A stretch of 64,000 bases of DNA from Archangium gephyra (GTDB taxonomy: Bacteria; Myxococcota; Myxococcia; Myxococcales; Myxococcaceae), in contig NZ_CP011509.1 of NCBI RefSeq assembly GCF_001027285.1, forward strand, positions 1,868,501 to 1,932,500, written 5' to 3'. The notes under the pieces are model-generated. The model worked only from the letters and a program-made list of their open reading frames with translations, searched no databases and had not been told where the DNA came from. How positions within the stretch are numbered: the first letter of the stretch is position 1; every line of letters begins with the position of its first letter. Made by a program: the position numbers and the translations under genes. Positions 21,078 to 24,240 of this stretch are shown here, in pieces.

Positions 21078-21118
21078 CTCCTCTCCCTCTCCCCTCGGGA
21101 GAGGGTCGGGGTGAGGGT
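21078..21118 (+). repeat. Dispersed intergenic hairpin repeat, copy 1
   Basis: This element directly follows the permease/peptidase stop. Its core CCTCTCCC...GGGAGAGG forms a stem, followed by TCGGGGTGAGGG and a little later CTCCCGGGT. A near-identical element lies at 44691-44732, also directly after a stop codon. Such elements recur between genes in many GC-rich proteobacteria. It could serve as a terminator or mRNA end-protector. Confidence 0.75.
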
Positions 21119-21179: not shown

Positions 21180-22100
21180 ATGAAGAAACCAGTGAGCCGG
21201 ATCTGGAAGGTGTTGCTCGGGGTGCTGGCGGGGGTGGTTCTGTTCCTCGCCCTCGCACTCACCGCGGTGCCGGTCCCCGAGCGCACCGGCTTCGGCCCAT
21301 CGCTCACGGAGTTGCGAGCGCTCGCCACGTCGACGGGCGAGCCGCTGCCCACGGAGTTCCGCCGCATCGTGGTGGGCGAGGGGACGATGCCGGAGTTCGC
21401 CCTGGTGGCGGGGCGGTTGCTCGGGACGCGTGCGGCCGTGTACCAGGCGCACCAGGTCCTCTACGGCGATGGGCGGAGCGTCATCGTCGATGCCGGGAGT
21501 GACGAGGAGACGCTGAAGCGCAACATGCCCGGCTCCCACCTCCAGGCGGACAACTACGCCCGGCTCCAGGAGGTGATGCGCCGCGCCGACGCCATCGTCC
21601 TCACGCACGAGCACTTCGACCACAGCGCGGGCATCGCGCACTCGCCGTACCTGGAGGAGGTCGCTCCACGGGCGATGCTGACGGAGGCCCAGCTCCACGG
21701 GCGCGACGCCGAGCGCGCCGGCTTCACCCCGGAGGTGGTGGGCCGCTTGAAGCCGCTGCGTTACGAGGGGATGCACCTGCTGCGGCCGGGCGTCGTGCTC
21801 ATCCGGGCGCCGGGCCACACACCGGGGACGCAGCTGGTCTACGTGCGGCTGGCGGACGGCCGGGAGTTCCTCCTGGTGGGAGACATCGCCTGGCACCAGG
21901 ACAACATCCTGCTGCCGCGCATGCACCCGAGGCTGGTGAACTGGCTGCTCGGCGAGGACGGCGAGGCGATGGCGAATCAGCTCCGCTACCTCCATGAGCT
22001 GCGGAAGGCCACGCCGGAGCTGAACCTCGTGGTGGCGCACGATGCGGAGCTGATGGCCGGGCTCCTCCAGCGCGGGCTGGTGCAGGACGGATTGCGGTAG
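21180..22100 (+). CDS. MBL-fold metallo-hydrolase with N-terminal membrane anchor
   Basis: This protein of about 306 residues has an uncleaved-looking hydrophobic N-terminus (KVLLGVLAGVVLFLALALT) and a metallo-beta-lactamase fold. The zinc motif THEHFDHSAG (H143 to H148) is complete, and later histidines appear in RAPGHTPG, GDIAWHQD and VAHDAEL. Substrates of this branch include lactones and thioesters; the exact one is unknown. GTG 21150 in the same frame is an alternative start. The active domain would face the periplasm. Confidence 0.88.
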   Translation: MKKPVSRIWKVLLGVLAGVVLFLALALTAVPVPERTGFGPSLTELRALATSTGEPLPTEFRRIVVGEGTMPEFALVAGRLLGTRAAVYQAHQVLYGDGRSVIVDAGSDEETLKRNMPGSHLQADNYARLQEVMRRADAIVLTHEHFDHSAGIAHSPYLEEVAPRAMLTEAQLHGRDAERAGFTPEVVGRLKPLRYEGMHLLRPGVVLIRAPGHTPGTQLVYVRLADGREFLLVGDIAWHQDNILLPRMHPRLVNWLLGEDGEAMANQLRYLHELRKATPELNLVVAHDAELMAGLLQRGLVQDGLR

Positions 22101-22172
22101 GACTCCGCGCGTCCTGTGTCCGGCGTCTGTCCTGGCGTGCGAGCAGGTGACCGGACAGGTAGATAAGCCAAC

Positions 22173-22202
22173 TTGACGTGACGGGTTCTCACAGTGGATA
22201 CT
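22173..22202 (+). promoter_or_regulatory. Possible sigma-70-type promoter for the nuclease pair
   Basis: TTGACG (22173-22178) and GATACT (22197-22202) are 18 bases apart, about 130 bases before the likely start of the Mrr-like gene. The match is moderate. No other promoter-like signal stands out in the 22101-22332 gap. Confidence 0.35.
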
Positions 22203-22332
22203 GCCGTGCGCGTCACATGCACGGCGGGTGTGTGGGCAATGAATGGCGTGTGCGTTGGATCGCAACGCGTGTCAGAGGGGCTCGTTAGCCTTTGAGCAGG
22301 ATGAGGCGGGGTTGGGGGTCGGGAGGTGGGGC

Positions 22333-22869
22333 GTGGAAGCGGGGGAGGAGAGGTACGTCGGCTGGGTGCGGTCCATGGGGAGGGCCGCGCTGCTCGATCT
22401 GTGGGCACAGATGCAGGAGGGTCAGGGCCTCGAGCCCTGGCCGCCAGGAAGAGCTTTCGAATACCTCATCCTGCGTGCGTTCCAGCTCGAGGGCGCACAG
22501 GTCGTCTGGCCCTATGGGGGACAGTGGGAGCAGGTGGATGGGGCGGTCTACGTCGATGGGCTCTCGTGTCTGGTCGAGTGCAAGCACTGGCGCGAGCCTG
22601 TCGATTTCAGCCCGATCGCGAAGTTCAAGGTGCGGGTCGATCGGCGGCCCCCGGCCGCTCTGGGTTTGATGTTCAGCGTGAAGGGGTTCACTGAGCCCGC
22701 ACTACGGGAGGCCTACGCGCAACCCTTGCGCAATGTCCTGCTGTGGGACGGCAGGGATGTGTCTCTGGCTTTGAGGGGCGGCATGCGTGCGGCCCTCGGG
22801 GCCAAATGGCGAAAGGCCGTGGAGGAAGCCCAGGTGGATTACGAGCTCAAGGCGGAGGATCTTCGATGA
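22333..22869 (+). CDS. Mrr-like restriction-endonuclease-fold protein
   Basis: This protein of about 178 residues has the fold signature of Mrr-type PD-(D/E)XK nucleases: E43 in GRAFEYL, D69 in QVDGAV, and E82/K84 in LVECKHW, followed by the family-like GLMFSVKGFTEPALREAY and ILLW-type strand NVLLWDG. Mrr relatives cleave DNA, often modified DNA, in phage defence. The start is uncertain: GTG 22333 has a GGGAGG at the right distance, while ATG 22243 and ATG 22375 are in the same frame. Its stop overlaps the next gene's ATG (ATGA), so the two proteins are co-made. No methylase is adjacent. Confidence 0.78.
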   Translation: MEAGEERYVGWVRSMGRAALLDLWAQMQEGQGLEPWPPGRAFEYLILRAFQLEGAQVVWPYGGQWEQVDGAVYVDGLSCLVECKHWREPVDFSPIAKFKVRVDRRPPAALGLMFSVKGFTEPALREAYAQPLRNVLLWDGRDVSLALRGGMRAALGAKWRKAVEEAQVDYELKAEDLR

Positions 22870-23420
22870 TTCCGTGTCTCGTCGTGCGCGGAGAGGTGAA
22901 TGCCCTCGTGCTTCGCAAGCTGCTCGAACCCGAGTTCGGGCGCGAACTCCGGGTGCTCGGAACGGACTACTTCTCGGAGAGTGTCTCCTTGGCCAGGTCT
23001 GTGCTCAGCAATCGCAAGGCCATCGTGGCCCTGGTCGTCGATACACGCTCAACCGAGCTCCAGCGGCTCCGGGAGTTGCACCGCTTCCTCGTCTACGCGC
23101 TGGTCCAGATTGAATCTCCGGACCTGTGGAAGGTGGTCCTGGTGGTGCCGGACACGGAGACCCTGCTCTTCCAGGACCGGAACGTGCTGCGTCAGGTGCT
23201 CGGGCGGGAGCCGACGGAGGAGGAATGGACTCGAGGCCAGAGCGAGCCTCTCCGCGTCCTGGAGGAGGTGTTCGGGCTCAAGGAGATACGCCTCGACAAG
23301 GAGCTGTGCCGGCGCCTGGAGCCGGTGGACGTGAGCTGTCTGGCCGGGCACTTCGTCGTGCGGCAGGTGCGGGAGTTCTTCCAGGCCCACCGGGAGGGAC
23401 GCACCACCCTGGTGTTCTGA
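22866..23420 (+). CDS. TOPRIM-like protein coupled to the Mrr-like nuclease
   Basis: This 184-residue protein is not a confident family match. The N-terminus (CLVVRGEVNALVLRKLL) resembles the glutamate strand-helix of TOPRIM domains, and AIVALVVDTRSTELQRLREL resembles the DxD strand with the second Asp replaced by Arg. A strand with VVLVVPDTETLLF follows, as in DUF4276/DUF4435-type proteins. It may be a degenerate TOPRIM subunit that regulates or targets the upstream nuclease. The four-base overlap makes a two-protein complex likely. Function is inferred. Confidence 0.65.
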   Translation: MIPCLVVRGEVNALVLRKLLEPEFGRELRVLGTDYFSESVSLARSVLSNRKAIVALVVDTRSTELQRLRELHRFLVYALVQIESPDLWKVVLVVPDTETLLFQDRNVLRQVLGREPTEEEWTRGQSEPLRVLEEVFGLKEIRLDKELCRRLEPVDVSCLAGHFVVRQVREFFQAHREGRTTLVF

Positions 23421-23433
23421 GCCGCCCCGCGCG

Positions 23434-24240
23434 CTAACGCATGGACAGGCGTCCGGCCATCACGGGGCCGCGGGAGGCCGCCAGCCGCCGGCGCCGGATG
23501 ATGGAGCGCAACCCCAGCCACATGGCCGCGAGCGACGCCACCATCCACACCGCCGCCCAGAAGGGCGCGGGCAGGTAGGTGAGCTGCGCCATGGCGTGCG
23601 CGTCGGAGACACCCACCTCCAGGCCGTAGCCGAACAGGCCCTTGATGTCCTGCAGTGCCAGGAGGCACGAGAGCGCGGCGATCCACACGACGAGCCCGCG
23701 CCGCAGCCACACCGGCCCCTTCCAGGCCACCAGTCCGAGCAGCGCCCCCATGCCGGCGATGAAGCCGAGCGTGAAGAGTCCGTCCGAGCGCGACGAGCCG
23801 GTGGCGAGCGCGTGGGCGGCTCCCGGATCCGGTGGCAGCAGCGGTACCCACAGCACGGCCACGCCCACCATCCAGACCACCAGCCCCCACAGCAGCGCAC
23901 GTCCGCTGCGCATGCGGCCGGCGGCCACCAGCAGCAGGGCCCCGGCCAGCGAGGAGCCCACGTAACCGCCCGAGGCGATGAGCAGCTCCCTCCAGAGCGA
24001 GCCGGTGAGCGAGTGGTAGGTGAGCCCGCCCGTGGCCGGGCTGATGGTGACGCTGCTCACGTGGGAGCCCACGGCCCAGGCCGCGAGGGCGTGTCCGCTC
24101 TCGTGCATGAGCGTGACCAGCAGCCGGAAGGGGTACAGCCATACCGTCTGCCAGAGGAAGAGGCTGGCCGCGGCGGCGAGCACCAGGCACGCCAGCAGCG
24201 CGCGGGTGGACATCGGCGGCGGCTCGGGGACGGGACGCAT
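23434..24240 (-). CDS. M50-like integral membrane metalloprotease
   Basis: This 268-residue protein with about seven hydrophobic segments has HESGH (46-50) in the first transmembrane region, as in the M50B-like family (PF13398). A start at M10 is also possible. These proteins are predicted intramembrane zinc proteases, and in actinobacteria many are uncharacterised. It is convergent with the nuclease pair, 13 bases apart. The substrate is unknown. Confidence 0.82.
   Translation of the reverse strand: MRPVPEPPPMSTRALLACLVLAAAASLFLWQTVWLYPFRLLVTLMHESGHALAAWAVGSHVSSVTISPATGGLTYHSLTGSLWRELLIASGGYVGSSLAGALLLVAAGRMRSGRALLWGLVVWMVGVAVLWVPLLPPDPGAAHALATGSSRSDGLFTLGFIAGMGALLGLVAWKGPVWLRRGLVVWIAALSCLLALQDIKGLFGYGLEVGVSDAHAMAQLTYLPAPFWAAVWMVASLAAMWLGLRSIIRRRRLAASRGPVMAGRLSMR

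Follow-up and report, generated by a model that had tools for sequence, protein, structure and literature searches.

Within a 64,000-nucleotide stretch of the Archangium gephyra genome (the window), two small genes overlap by a few bases, and the question is what holds them together: gene 1 is predicted to encode a bare Mrr-like nuclease, and gene 2 a degenerate TOPRIM protein. A sequence-only reading had proposed the two as a candidate defence pair. Both open reading frames and the ATGA overlap on which it relied were recovered at the positions given in Table 1. Here we describe the pair as a recurrent unit in which the nuclease is repeatedly lost while its partner is kept, a pattern which the earlier reading did not foresee and which points to the relation of a toxin and its keeper.

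Table 1. Features of the two-gene locus and of the region upstream of it (window positions).
Feature	Position	Strand	Description
Gene 1	22333..22869	+	178 aa; predicted stand-alone Mrr-type PD-(D/E)XK nuclease; GTG start; E43, D69, E82, K84
Gene 2	22866..23420	+	184 aa; predicted OLD-like TOPRIM protein; active site decayed (R8, N12, D59-T60-R61), E98 kept
ATGA overlap	22866..22869	+	Gene 1 stop and gene 2 start; from sequence
Promoter-like site	22173..22202	+	TTGACG-18-GATACT, sigma-70-type; upstream of the window pair; predicted from sequence
Leader motif	22269..22289	+	GTGTCAGAGGGGCTSGTTAGC, 21 bases; common to the Archangium orthologues

The start of gene 1 at the GTG is supported because the orthologue in genome G065 has an ATG aligned to this codon and the same purine-rich GGGAGGTG precedes both. 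The promoter-like site is the one match of its kind in 22050-23500, against a mean of 0.1 in shuffled sequences, and an equivalent site lies 5' of the leader motif in all six Archangium orthologues, starting 62, 96 or 97 bases before the motif. The motif itself is present in the same six loci, including the four in which the nuclease is broken (in one orthologue with a single further change), and together with the next base it forms the dyad GGCT-N4-AGCC. It has one site in the whole genome at up to one mismatch, and was absent, at up to five substitutions, from the other pairs among 37 loci compared. Such a motif is possibly an operator or a leader element. A terminator-like site at 22650-22664 was disregarded because it lies inside gene 1.

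Gene 1 matches the Pfam family Mrr_cat (PF04471) with 39.2 bits (cut-off 21, E 8.8e-10) over residues 39-142 of its 178, and no other Pfam family at E <=10. The four residues which the sequence-only reading had assigned to an Mrr-like active site are all in place: among the 75 sequences of the gene-1 alignment (that of the window included), G39, E43, D69 and K158 are invariant, and E82 and K84 are at least 90% conserved. The six best Foldseek rows of the AlphaFold model (pLDDT 92.6, pTM 0.89) are MspJI, HindIII and EndoMS (E 8.9e-5 to 9.9e-4), with MspJI on top (E 8.9e-5, prob 1.00) and EndoMS in the sixth row (E 9.9e-4). The gene-1 profile found no convincing solved relative by sequence, and gene 1 had no NCBIfam match and no PADLOC match at E <=10. 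These features support the prediction of an Mrr-like nuclease that consists of the catalytic domain alone. The PADLOC Csx1 model matched 6 of the 75 alignment members (best 9.8e-7), and other PADLOC models one to three each; we read these matches as the shared nuclease core.

Within Myxococcota, the nuclease site EDEK is kept in 25 of 30 gene-1 copies. K84 is replaced with R in five nuclease copies, the frames of which are still open. Three loci of genus g19 (L067, L068, L069) combine R for the catalytic Lys of the nuclease with a gene 2 without DxD, both frames being open. A deep, divergent pair in two Archangium genomes (L073:8720-9858 and L070:8838-9982), with gene 1 26% and 20% identical to that of the window, has ExR for ExK in the nuclease and, again, both frames open; to judge by this replacement, these nucleases may be catalytically dead.

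Gene 2 of the window reaches the cut-off of no family in Pfam or NCBIfam and has no PADLOC match at E <=10. Phage_RpbA and DUF2859 were below cut-off and were dropped, and the MAD4 model (NCBIfam NF047734) gives 12.9 bits, with a cut-off of 160. At E <=1, the 80 members of the gene-2 alignment show weak matches to DUF3226 (11 members), OLD-like_TOPRIM (11 members, best 0.0029) and DUF4276 (9 members), and 25 of the 80 weakly match MAD4 (best 3.3e-7). The predicted structure is a single domain of 184 aa (pLDDT 92.1, pTM 0.86). VIA-align, which re-ranks the list of Foldseek only, placed the TOPRIM of the OLD protein 6nk8 first (Z 12.7, rmsd 3.4 over 166 residues), and the five top rows are all OLD proteins (Z 12.7, 11.5 for 6njx, 11.4, 11.4, and 9.9 for 6p74). 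The first unrelated fold has Z 9.4, tied with the fifth OLD row, and GajA (8sm3) has Z 8.6, so that 6p74 and GajA are not separated from lumazine synthases in this ranking. Foldseek alone gave no match at E <=0.001; a response regulator came first, and the OLD protein 6p74 second (prob 0.93, E 0.05). Because the gene-2 profile found no convincing solved relative by sequence, the link to OLD is drawn from the fold and the weak Pfam matches.

The consensus of gene 2 outside the myxobacterial set reads EG-x-x-D ... DAD ... PE-x-E. There, 42 of 64 copies combine E8 with DxD, compared to 5 of 35 within the set, counts that leave out 11 genome-contig loci already present from the phylum search. In the window, R8 and N12 stand where relatives outside Myxococcota mostly have E and D, and D59-T60-R61 takes the place of DxD, with E98 kept. 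The predicted fold and the canonical site in most of the non-Myxococcota relatives support the identification of gene 2 as a degenerate TOPRIM of OLD type. The sequence-only reading, which had described a TOPRIM domain with DxR for DxD and had named an unrelated fold as grounds for refutation, was right on the domain, as the model folds as a TOPRIM, and underestimated the extent of the decay, which takes in positions 8 and 12.

A scan of genome contigs with gene 1 returned 76 loci in about ten phyla: Cyanobacteriota, Chloroflexota, Thermodesulfobacteriota, Planctomycetota, Acidobacteriota, Pseudomonadota, Armatimonadota, Bacteroidota, KSB1, Gracilibacteria and Myxococcota. Gene 2 lies directly 3' of gene 1 in 75 of the 76 loci, all found by gene 1 alone, and the exception (L147) is a gene-1 fragment. 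A four-base overlap ([AGT]TGA, in frame with gene 2) is present in 57 of the 75 two-gene loci, a count with which an independent recount agrees. The gene-1 and gene-2 distance matrices correlate over 83 loci with r = 0.87 (maximum of 0.20 in 500 permutations), a value also expected from common descent of the pair alone; this comparison left out nine gene-2 rows (partial, short or masked) and three loci with disrupted gene 1, and the four broken Archangium loci contribute no gene-1 row. Because the same order recurs in 75 of 76 loci and the distances are correlated, the pairing is more than chance. Gene 2 is the faster-changing member, with a median identity of 24% versus 44% for gene 1.

The distribution of the pair is patchy. 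The earlier reading would have been refuted if the two genes belonged to the myxobacterial core. They do not: gene 2 was matched in 19 of 195 Myxococcota genomes, one of these by a fragment only, and the matched genomes include all six Archangium genomes searched. Of 148 genomes drawn from the cyanobacterial order of Calothrix (G195), the same 7 carry both genes. In the gene-1 tree, sequences of different phyla stand together on well-supported branches (Chloroflexota with Thermodesulfobacteriota; one Planctomycetota with Cyanobacteriota; Thermodesulfobacteriota with Pseudomonadota), from which we infer transfer between phyla, and the 30 myxobacterial rows lie on one side of a modestly supported branch (91/57). 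Besides the window pair, its genome contains three others, at 4.267, 7.695 and 1.376 Mb, four in all; at 8.017 Mb there is a fragment of gene 2. All six Archangium genomes also carry a second pair (L056, L058-L062), in which neither frame is interrupted; in G000, it is flanked by what we take, from ORF resemblance, to be hemE and thiolase genes. Plasmid records were matched by gene 1 of Calothrix (three) and, partially, by gene 1 of the window (four), and none by gene 2 of the window; the pair was not found in viral contigs, nor in phage records searched with the Calothrix gene 1. A conjugative Rhizobium beringeri plasmid (L205:2441-5874) carries the pair, with a gene 2 of 129 aa, near a gene annotated as 7-cyano-7-deazaguanine synthase.

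The two genes decay unequally. In four of the six Archangium orthologues of the window pair (G061, G062, G063 and G064), the nuclease is broken, with different segments lost and different endpoints; in the G061 remnant, Asp69 is moreover replaced by Ala. The nuclease is intact in G000 and G065, and gene 2 is open in all six genomes. Because the endpoints differ while G000 and G065 are intact, we take the four deletions as separate events. Further broken nucleases accompany a full-length gene 2 in Hyalangium L055, L085, L109, L139, L146, L179 and L180, and on a Leptolyngbya plasmid (L204), gene 1 is split next to an open gene 2 of the short type. Thus, a broken nuclease is found with an open gene 2 in 12 loci (4 in Archangium and 8 others), with a bias toward open gene 2 in that the Archangium, L179 and L180 cases came through searches with gene 2 or with both genes (both genes served as queries in Myxococcota and in the order of G195). 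The reverse, a broken gene 2 beside an intact gene 1, was not seen, with L082 (masked) and L090 and L094 (contig ends) unjudgeable. The gene-1-only scan, which is biased against broken nucleases, gave 6 to 0 among 75 loci (L074, L085, L109, L139, L146, L149).

The individual cases differ in kind. L109 and L139 are broken near the C-terminus only, and the automatic rule scored L139 as intact; L138, at a contig edge, was not counted as broken. In L085, L109, L139, L146 and L179, the defect is a point or frame change. Several of these loci are on contigs of drafts or metagenomes, and sequencing error may explain the defects, although such errors should strike gene 2 too. Among 111 entries scored, at least four of which (L178, L181-L183) are duplicate contigs, 97 are intact, 11 are broken or partial, 2 lack gene 1 and 1 lacks gene 2; a full-length gene 2 without gene 1 or a gene-1 remnant was never found in these 111. 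The gene-2 profile covers only the first half of six copies (L054, L095, L099, L104, L135, L142), which are open to a normal-looking end and which we read as shorter or diverged variants, apparently unbroken.

Among the Archangium genomes, the dN/dS of gene 2 ranges from 0.15 to 0.59 over all 15 pairs, and from 0.40 to 0.51 in pairs with G064. Between G061, G062 and G063, all of them with a broken nuclease, the values are 0.15, 0.24 and 0.28, part of this history being older than the nuclease losses; for gene 1, the value between the two intact genomes is 0.18. Gene 2 is under purifying selection in G061, G062 and G063 despite the broken nucleases.

We tentatively favor, at somewhat less than an even chance, the explanation that the pair is a toxin-antitoxin-like or conditional restriction conflict module in which gene 2 controls a harmful gene 1. 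The two genes would be one copy of a small, horizontally spreading module. Gene 1 would be a bare PD-(D/E)XK DNA endonuclease, potentially harmful to its own cell, and the product of gene 2, translated straight after it, would bind the nuclease and restrain or direct it. Outside Myxococcota, the partner would mostly retain a metal site of its own; in Myxococcaceae, where this site appears mostly decayed, the role in binding or control alone would be left. Loss of control, for example upon phage takeover or plasmid loss, would release the nuclease. Once the nuclease is destroyed, the cell would be safe and the partner may persist.

This explanation is preferred because the nuclease is often lost with the partner kept, the two genes are rarely apart, the partner is fast-changing, and catalysis appears to have been lost in the partner and not in the nuclease; plasmid carriage was also counted in its favor. 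Several points count against it. The canonical residues kept by 42 of 64 copies outside the myxobacterial set speak for an enzymatic role of gene 2 there. The gene order is the opposite of that in classical type II toxin-antitoxin operons, where the antitoxin gene usually precedes that of the toxin; here the nuclease gene leads. We know of no TOPRIM fold that serves as an antitoxin. The five open nuclease copies with R for K84 and the higher dN/dS of gene 2 in pairs with G064 weigh on the same side. A broader claim, that the pairs make up a cross-phylum toxin-antitoxin-like class with an Mrr nuclease as the poison and an OLD-type TOPRIM as the antidote, ancestrally a nuclease whose own site was discarded in most myxobacterial copies, is more speculative and we hold it as a doubtful possibility.

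The main rival to control of the nuclease by gene 2 is a two-enzyme restriction or abortive infection system, in which two co-nucleases, or a nuclease and a specificity subunit, are directed at DNA entering the cell, perhaps modified DNA, and gene 1 is lost as any costly defence gene may be. We consider this rather unlikely, although several observations speak for it: the top structural match of gene 1, MspJI, is modification-dependent, gene 2 matches the TOPRIM domains of OLD and GajA, the canonical TOPRIM site is widespread outside the myxobacterial set, and the model that matches 25 of 80 gene-2 members, MAD4, is that of a defence protein. Because many such pairs act against phages, the two readings overlap, and the pair is a possible defence system.

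Single neighbours of a defence-like kind add to this evidence. A PglZ gene (848 aa) lies directly downstream of the pair in L138 (L138:873-3416), from a Pseudanabaenaceae genome, and beside the pair on Leptolyngbya plasmid1 (L203) there are four short CDS annotated as alkaline phosphatase domain-containing, which are probably PglZ remnants. An 848-aa pair neighbour in Anaerolineae (L086:6036-8579, minus strand) matches LmuB models (5.7e-29) and, more weakly, mad3 (2.3e-18). At L107, where the pair precedes a DNA polymerase III gamma/tau gene, a cytosine methylase is encoded upstream. In the PglZ-adjoining sub-branch (L138:873-3416; L203:6031-7021), gene 2 is shortened to about 150 aa. Of the 114 neighbours of relatives, 4 are matched by the mad6 model and 3 by the mad3 model; when ten proteins were tried with PADLOC, one of these candidates proved to be a kinase that fits PD-T4-6 far better, and one was LmuB-like.

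Judged by raw, uncontrolled neighbour counts, the surroundings of the pair do not readily suggest a defence island. Neighbour genes were called by a crude longest-ORF rule, and of 118 immediate neighbours listed for 64 loci, 114 were scanned (four were left out of the alignment). No PADLOC family occurs in more than 4 of the 114, among the best 25 of 141 listed, and no Pfam family in more than 4 (Uma2), among the best 25 of 129. When 19 neighbours from other phyla were taken one by one, most of those matched by Pfam were metabolic, transport or replication proteins, and three had no family. In L131, the pair is flanked by a PAPS-reductase-domain gene and an EF-Tu-like GTPase gene, probably cysD and cysN. 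Its neighbours in L140 are a Bmp binding protein and an ABC ATPase, one of the two being confirmed at L103 and one at L141; in L084 they are TrkH and homoserine dehydrogenase, and in L119 an M3 peptidase and methylmalonyl-CoA mutase.

In the window, the gene directly 3' of gene 2 encodes an M50B peptidase (Pfam), and the upstream neighbours are presumably metallo-beta-lactamase-like and M1-peptidase-like proteins, judging by motifs; the statement of the sequence-only reading that the pair stands alone, with no methylase, holds for these immediate neighbours. A large peptidase-like gene and the M50B peptidase flank the pair in all six Archangium genomes. Three of them (G062, G064 and G065) gave no match to the gene directly 5' of the window pair, and in G064 additional sequence lies to either side of the pair. 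Among 86 genomes of the family, the M50 neighbour was located in five from other genera; because its surroundings there are non-syntenic and without the pair, they provide neither an empty site nor a dating. A copy of a dispersed G+C-rich repeat (CTCACCCCNNCCCTCTCCC) lies at 21097-21115 on the minus strand of the window; the repeat has 415 exact matches in the genome (189 forward, 226 reverse), compared with 0 for the backwards control pattern.

Besides the low count of any one PADLOC family among the 114 neighbours (at most 4), three points weigh against the two-enzyme system: the pair comes without a sensor, ATPase, helicase or methylase; the site of gene 2 is decayed in most Myxococcota copies while that of gene 1 is kept; and the survival of gene 2 over gene 1 in 12 loci versus none is left unexplained. 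From the sequences compared, the decay pattern appears to be explained more readily by gene 2 restraining a harmful nuclease than by a two-enzyme restriction system.

The retained gene 2 can, alternatively, have an independent job, for instance as a DNA-binding regulator or a repair factor, with gene 1 as a dispensable accessory. That gene 2 stays open and constrained in the four Archangium genomes with a dead nuclease, where the leader motif and the promoter-like site are kept as well, suits such a role. We nevertheless judge it improbable, given that no full-length gene 2 without gene 1 or its remnant turned up in the 111 entries, that the distribution is patchy and that divergence is fast. 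A DNA-repair pair, with an EndoMS/NucS-like structure-specific nuclease and a RecR/OLD-like TOPRIM helper, is suggested by the sixth Foldseek row of gene 1, but is very improbable for a patchy, multi-copy, sometimes plasmid-borne and repeatedly inactivated pair, the nuclease of which is outscored as EndoMS by MspJI and HindIII.

If gene 2 indeed restrains gene 1, it would be an antidote with a nuclease fold. The passage from an intact pair to a dead nuclease with a surviving partner within one genus is a natural series that makes control of the nuclease by gene 2 directly testable. If the two genes are instead an anti-phage pair, they would be a small two-gene system missed by the PADLOC models searched.

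The sequence-only reading knew of no named system of exactly these two genes, and nothing in PADLOC, NCBIfam, Pfam or the literature searched speaks to the contrary. Among titles and the beginnings of abstracts, a literature from which subscription papers and preprints mostly fell outside, we found no description of an Mrr and TOPRIM pair. PMC3710099 speaks of an N-terminal domain fused to TOPRIM or to Mrr-like domains, and not of an operon of Mrr and TOPRIM; in PMC12839542, the partners of OLD-ABC ATPases are TOPRIM proteins or PD-(D/E)XK nucleases, an arrangement other than TOPRIM with PD-(D/E)XK. With the Mrr/MspJI-type Type IV restriction endonucleases, gene 1 shares the predicted PD-(D/E)XK core in Mrr order (E, D, ExK); it differs in consisting of the catalytic domain only, with no modified-DNA recognition domain in its 178 aa, and in being coupled to TOPRIM in 75 of 76 loci. 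The Mrr protein of Escherichia coli has an additional, N-terminal DNA-recognition domain.

The known OLD-type TOPRIM proteins, those of OLD, Gabija and PARIS, are effectors acting together with an ATPase. In the pair described here, which spans about ten phyla, such a protein has a second nuclease as its partner, and there is no ATPase. The model of gene 2 aligns along its length with the TOPRIM region of OLD nucleases of classes 1 and 2 (GajA of Gabija). The pair differs from these in the lack of an ABC ATPase or a UvrD-type helicase and in the PD-(D/E)XK nuclease that partners gene 2 in the 75 two-gene loci, and gene 2 of the window, unlike OLD, has lost most of the acidic metal-binding residues. 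In contrast to Gabija (GajA with the UvrD-like GajB), neither window protein matches PADLOC at E <=10, and the neighbour of gene 2 is the M50B peptidase. In PARIS, according to PMC10568477 and PMC12839542, the TOPRIM protein AriB is a separate gene in a two-gene module with the OLD-ABC protein AriA. The window pair resembles it in the separately encoded TOPRIM and the two-gene organization, with a nuclease here in place of the ABC ATPase. The resemblance to MADS consists in the weak MAD4 profile similarity of gene 2, the window copy being far below the cut-off, and no NCBIfam MADS model is among the matches of gene-1 members. Type II toxin-antitoxin systems differ from the pair in that here the putative toxin gene comes first, the partner has no known antitoxin fold and neutralization is only putative; they are like it in having two small, coupled genes inherited together, in plasmid and chromosome copies, and in one-sided decay, the loss of the toxin with retention of the antitoxin being paralleled here by 12 loci versus 0, a partly gene-2-biased count, and by 6 versus 0 in the gene-1 scan.
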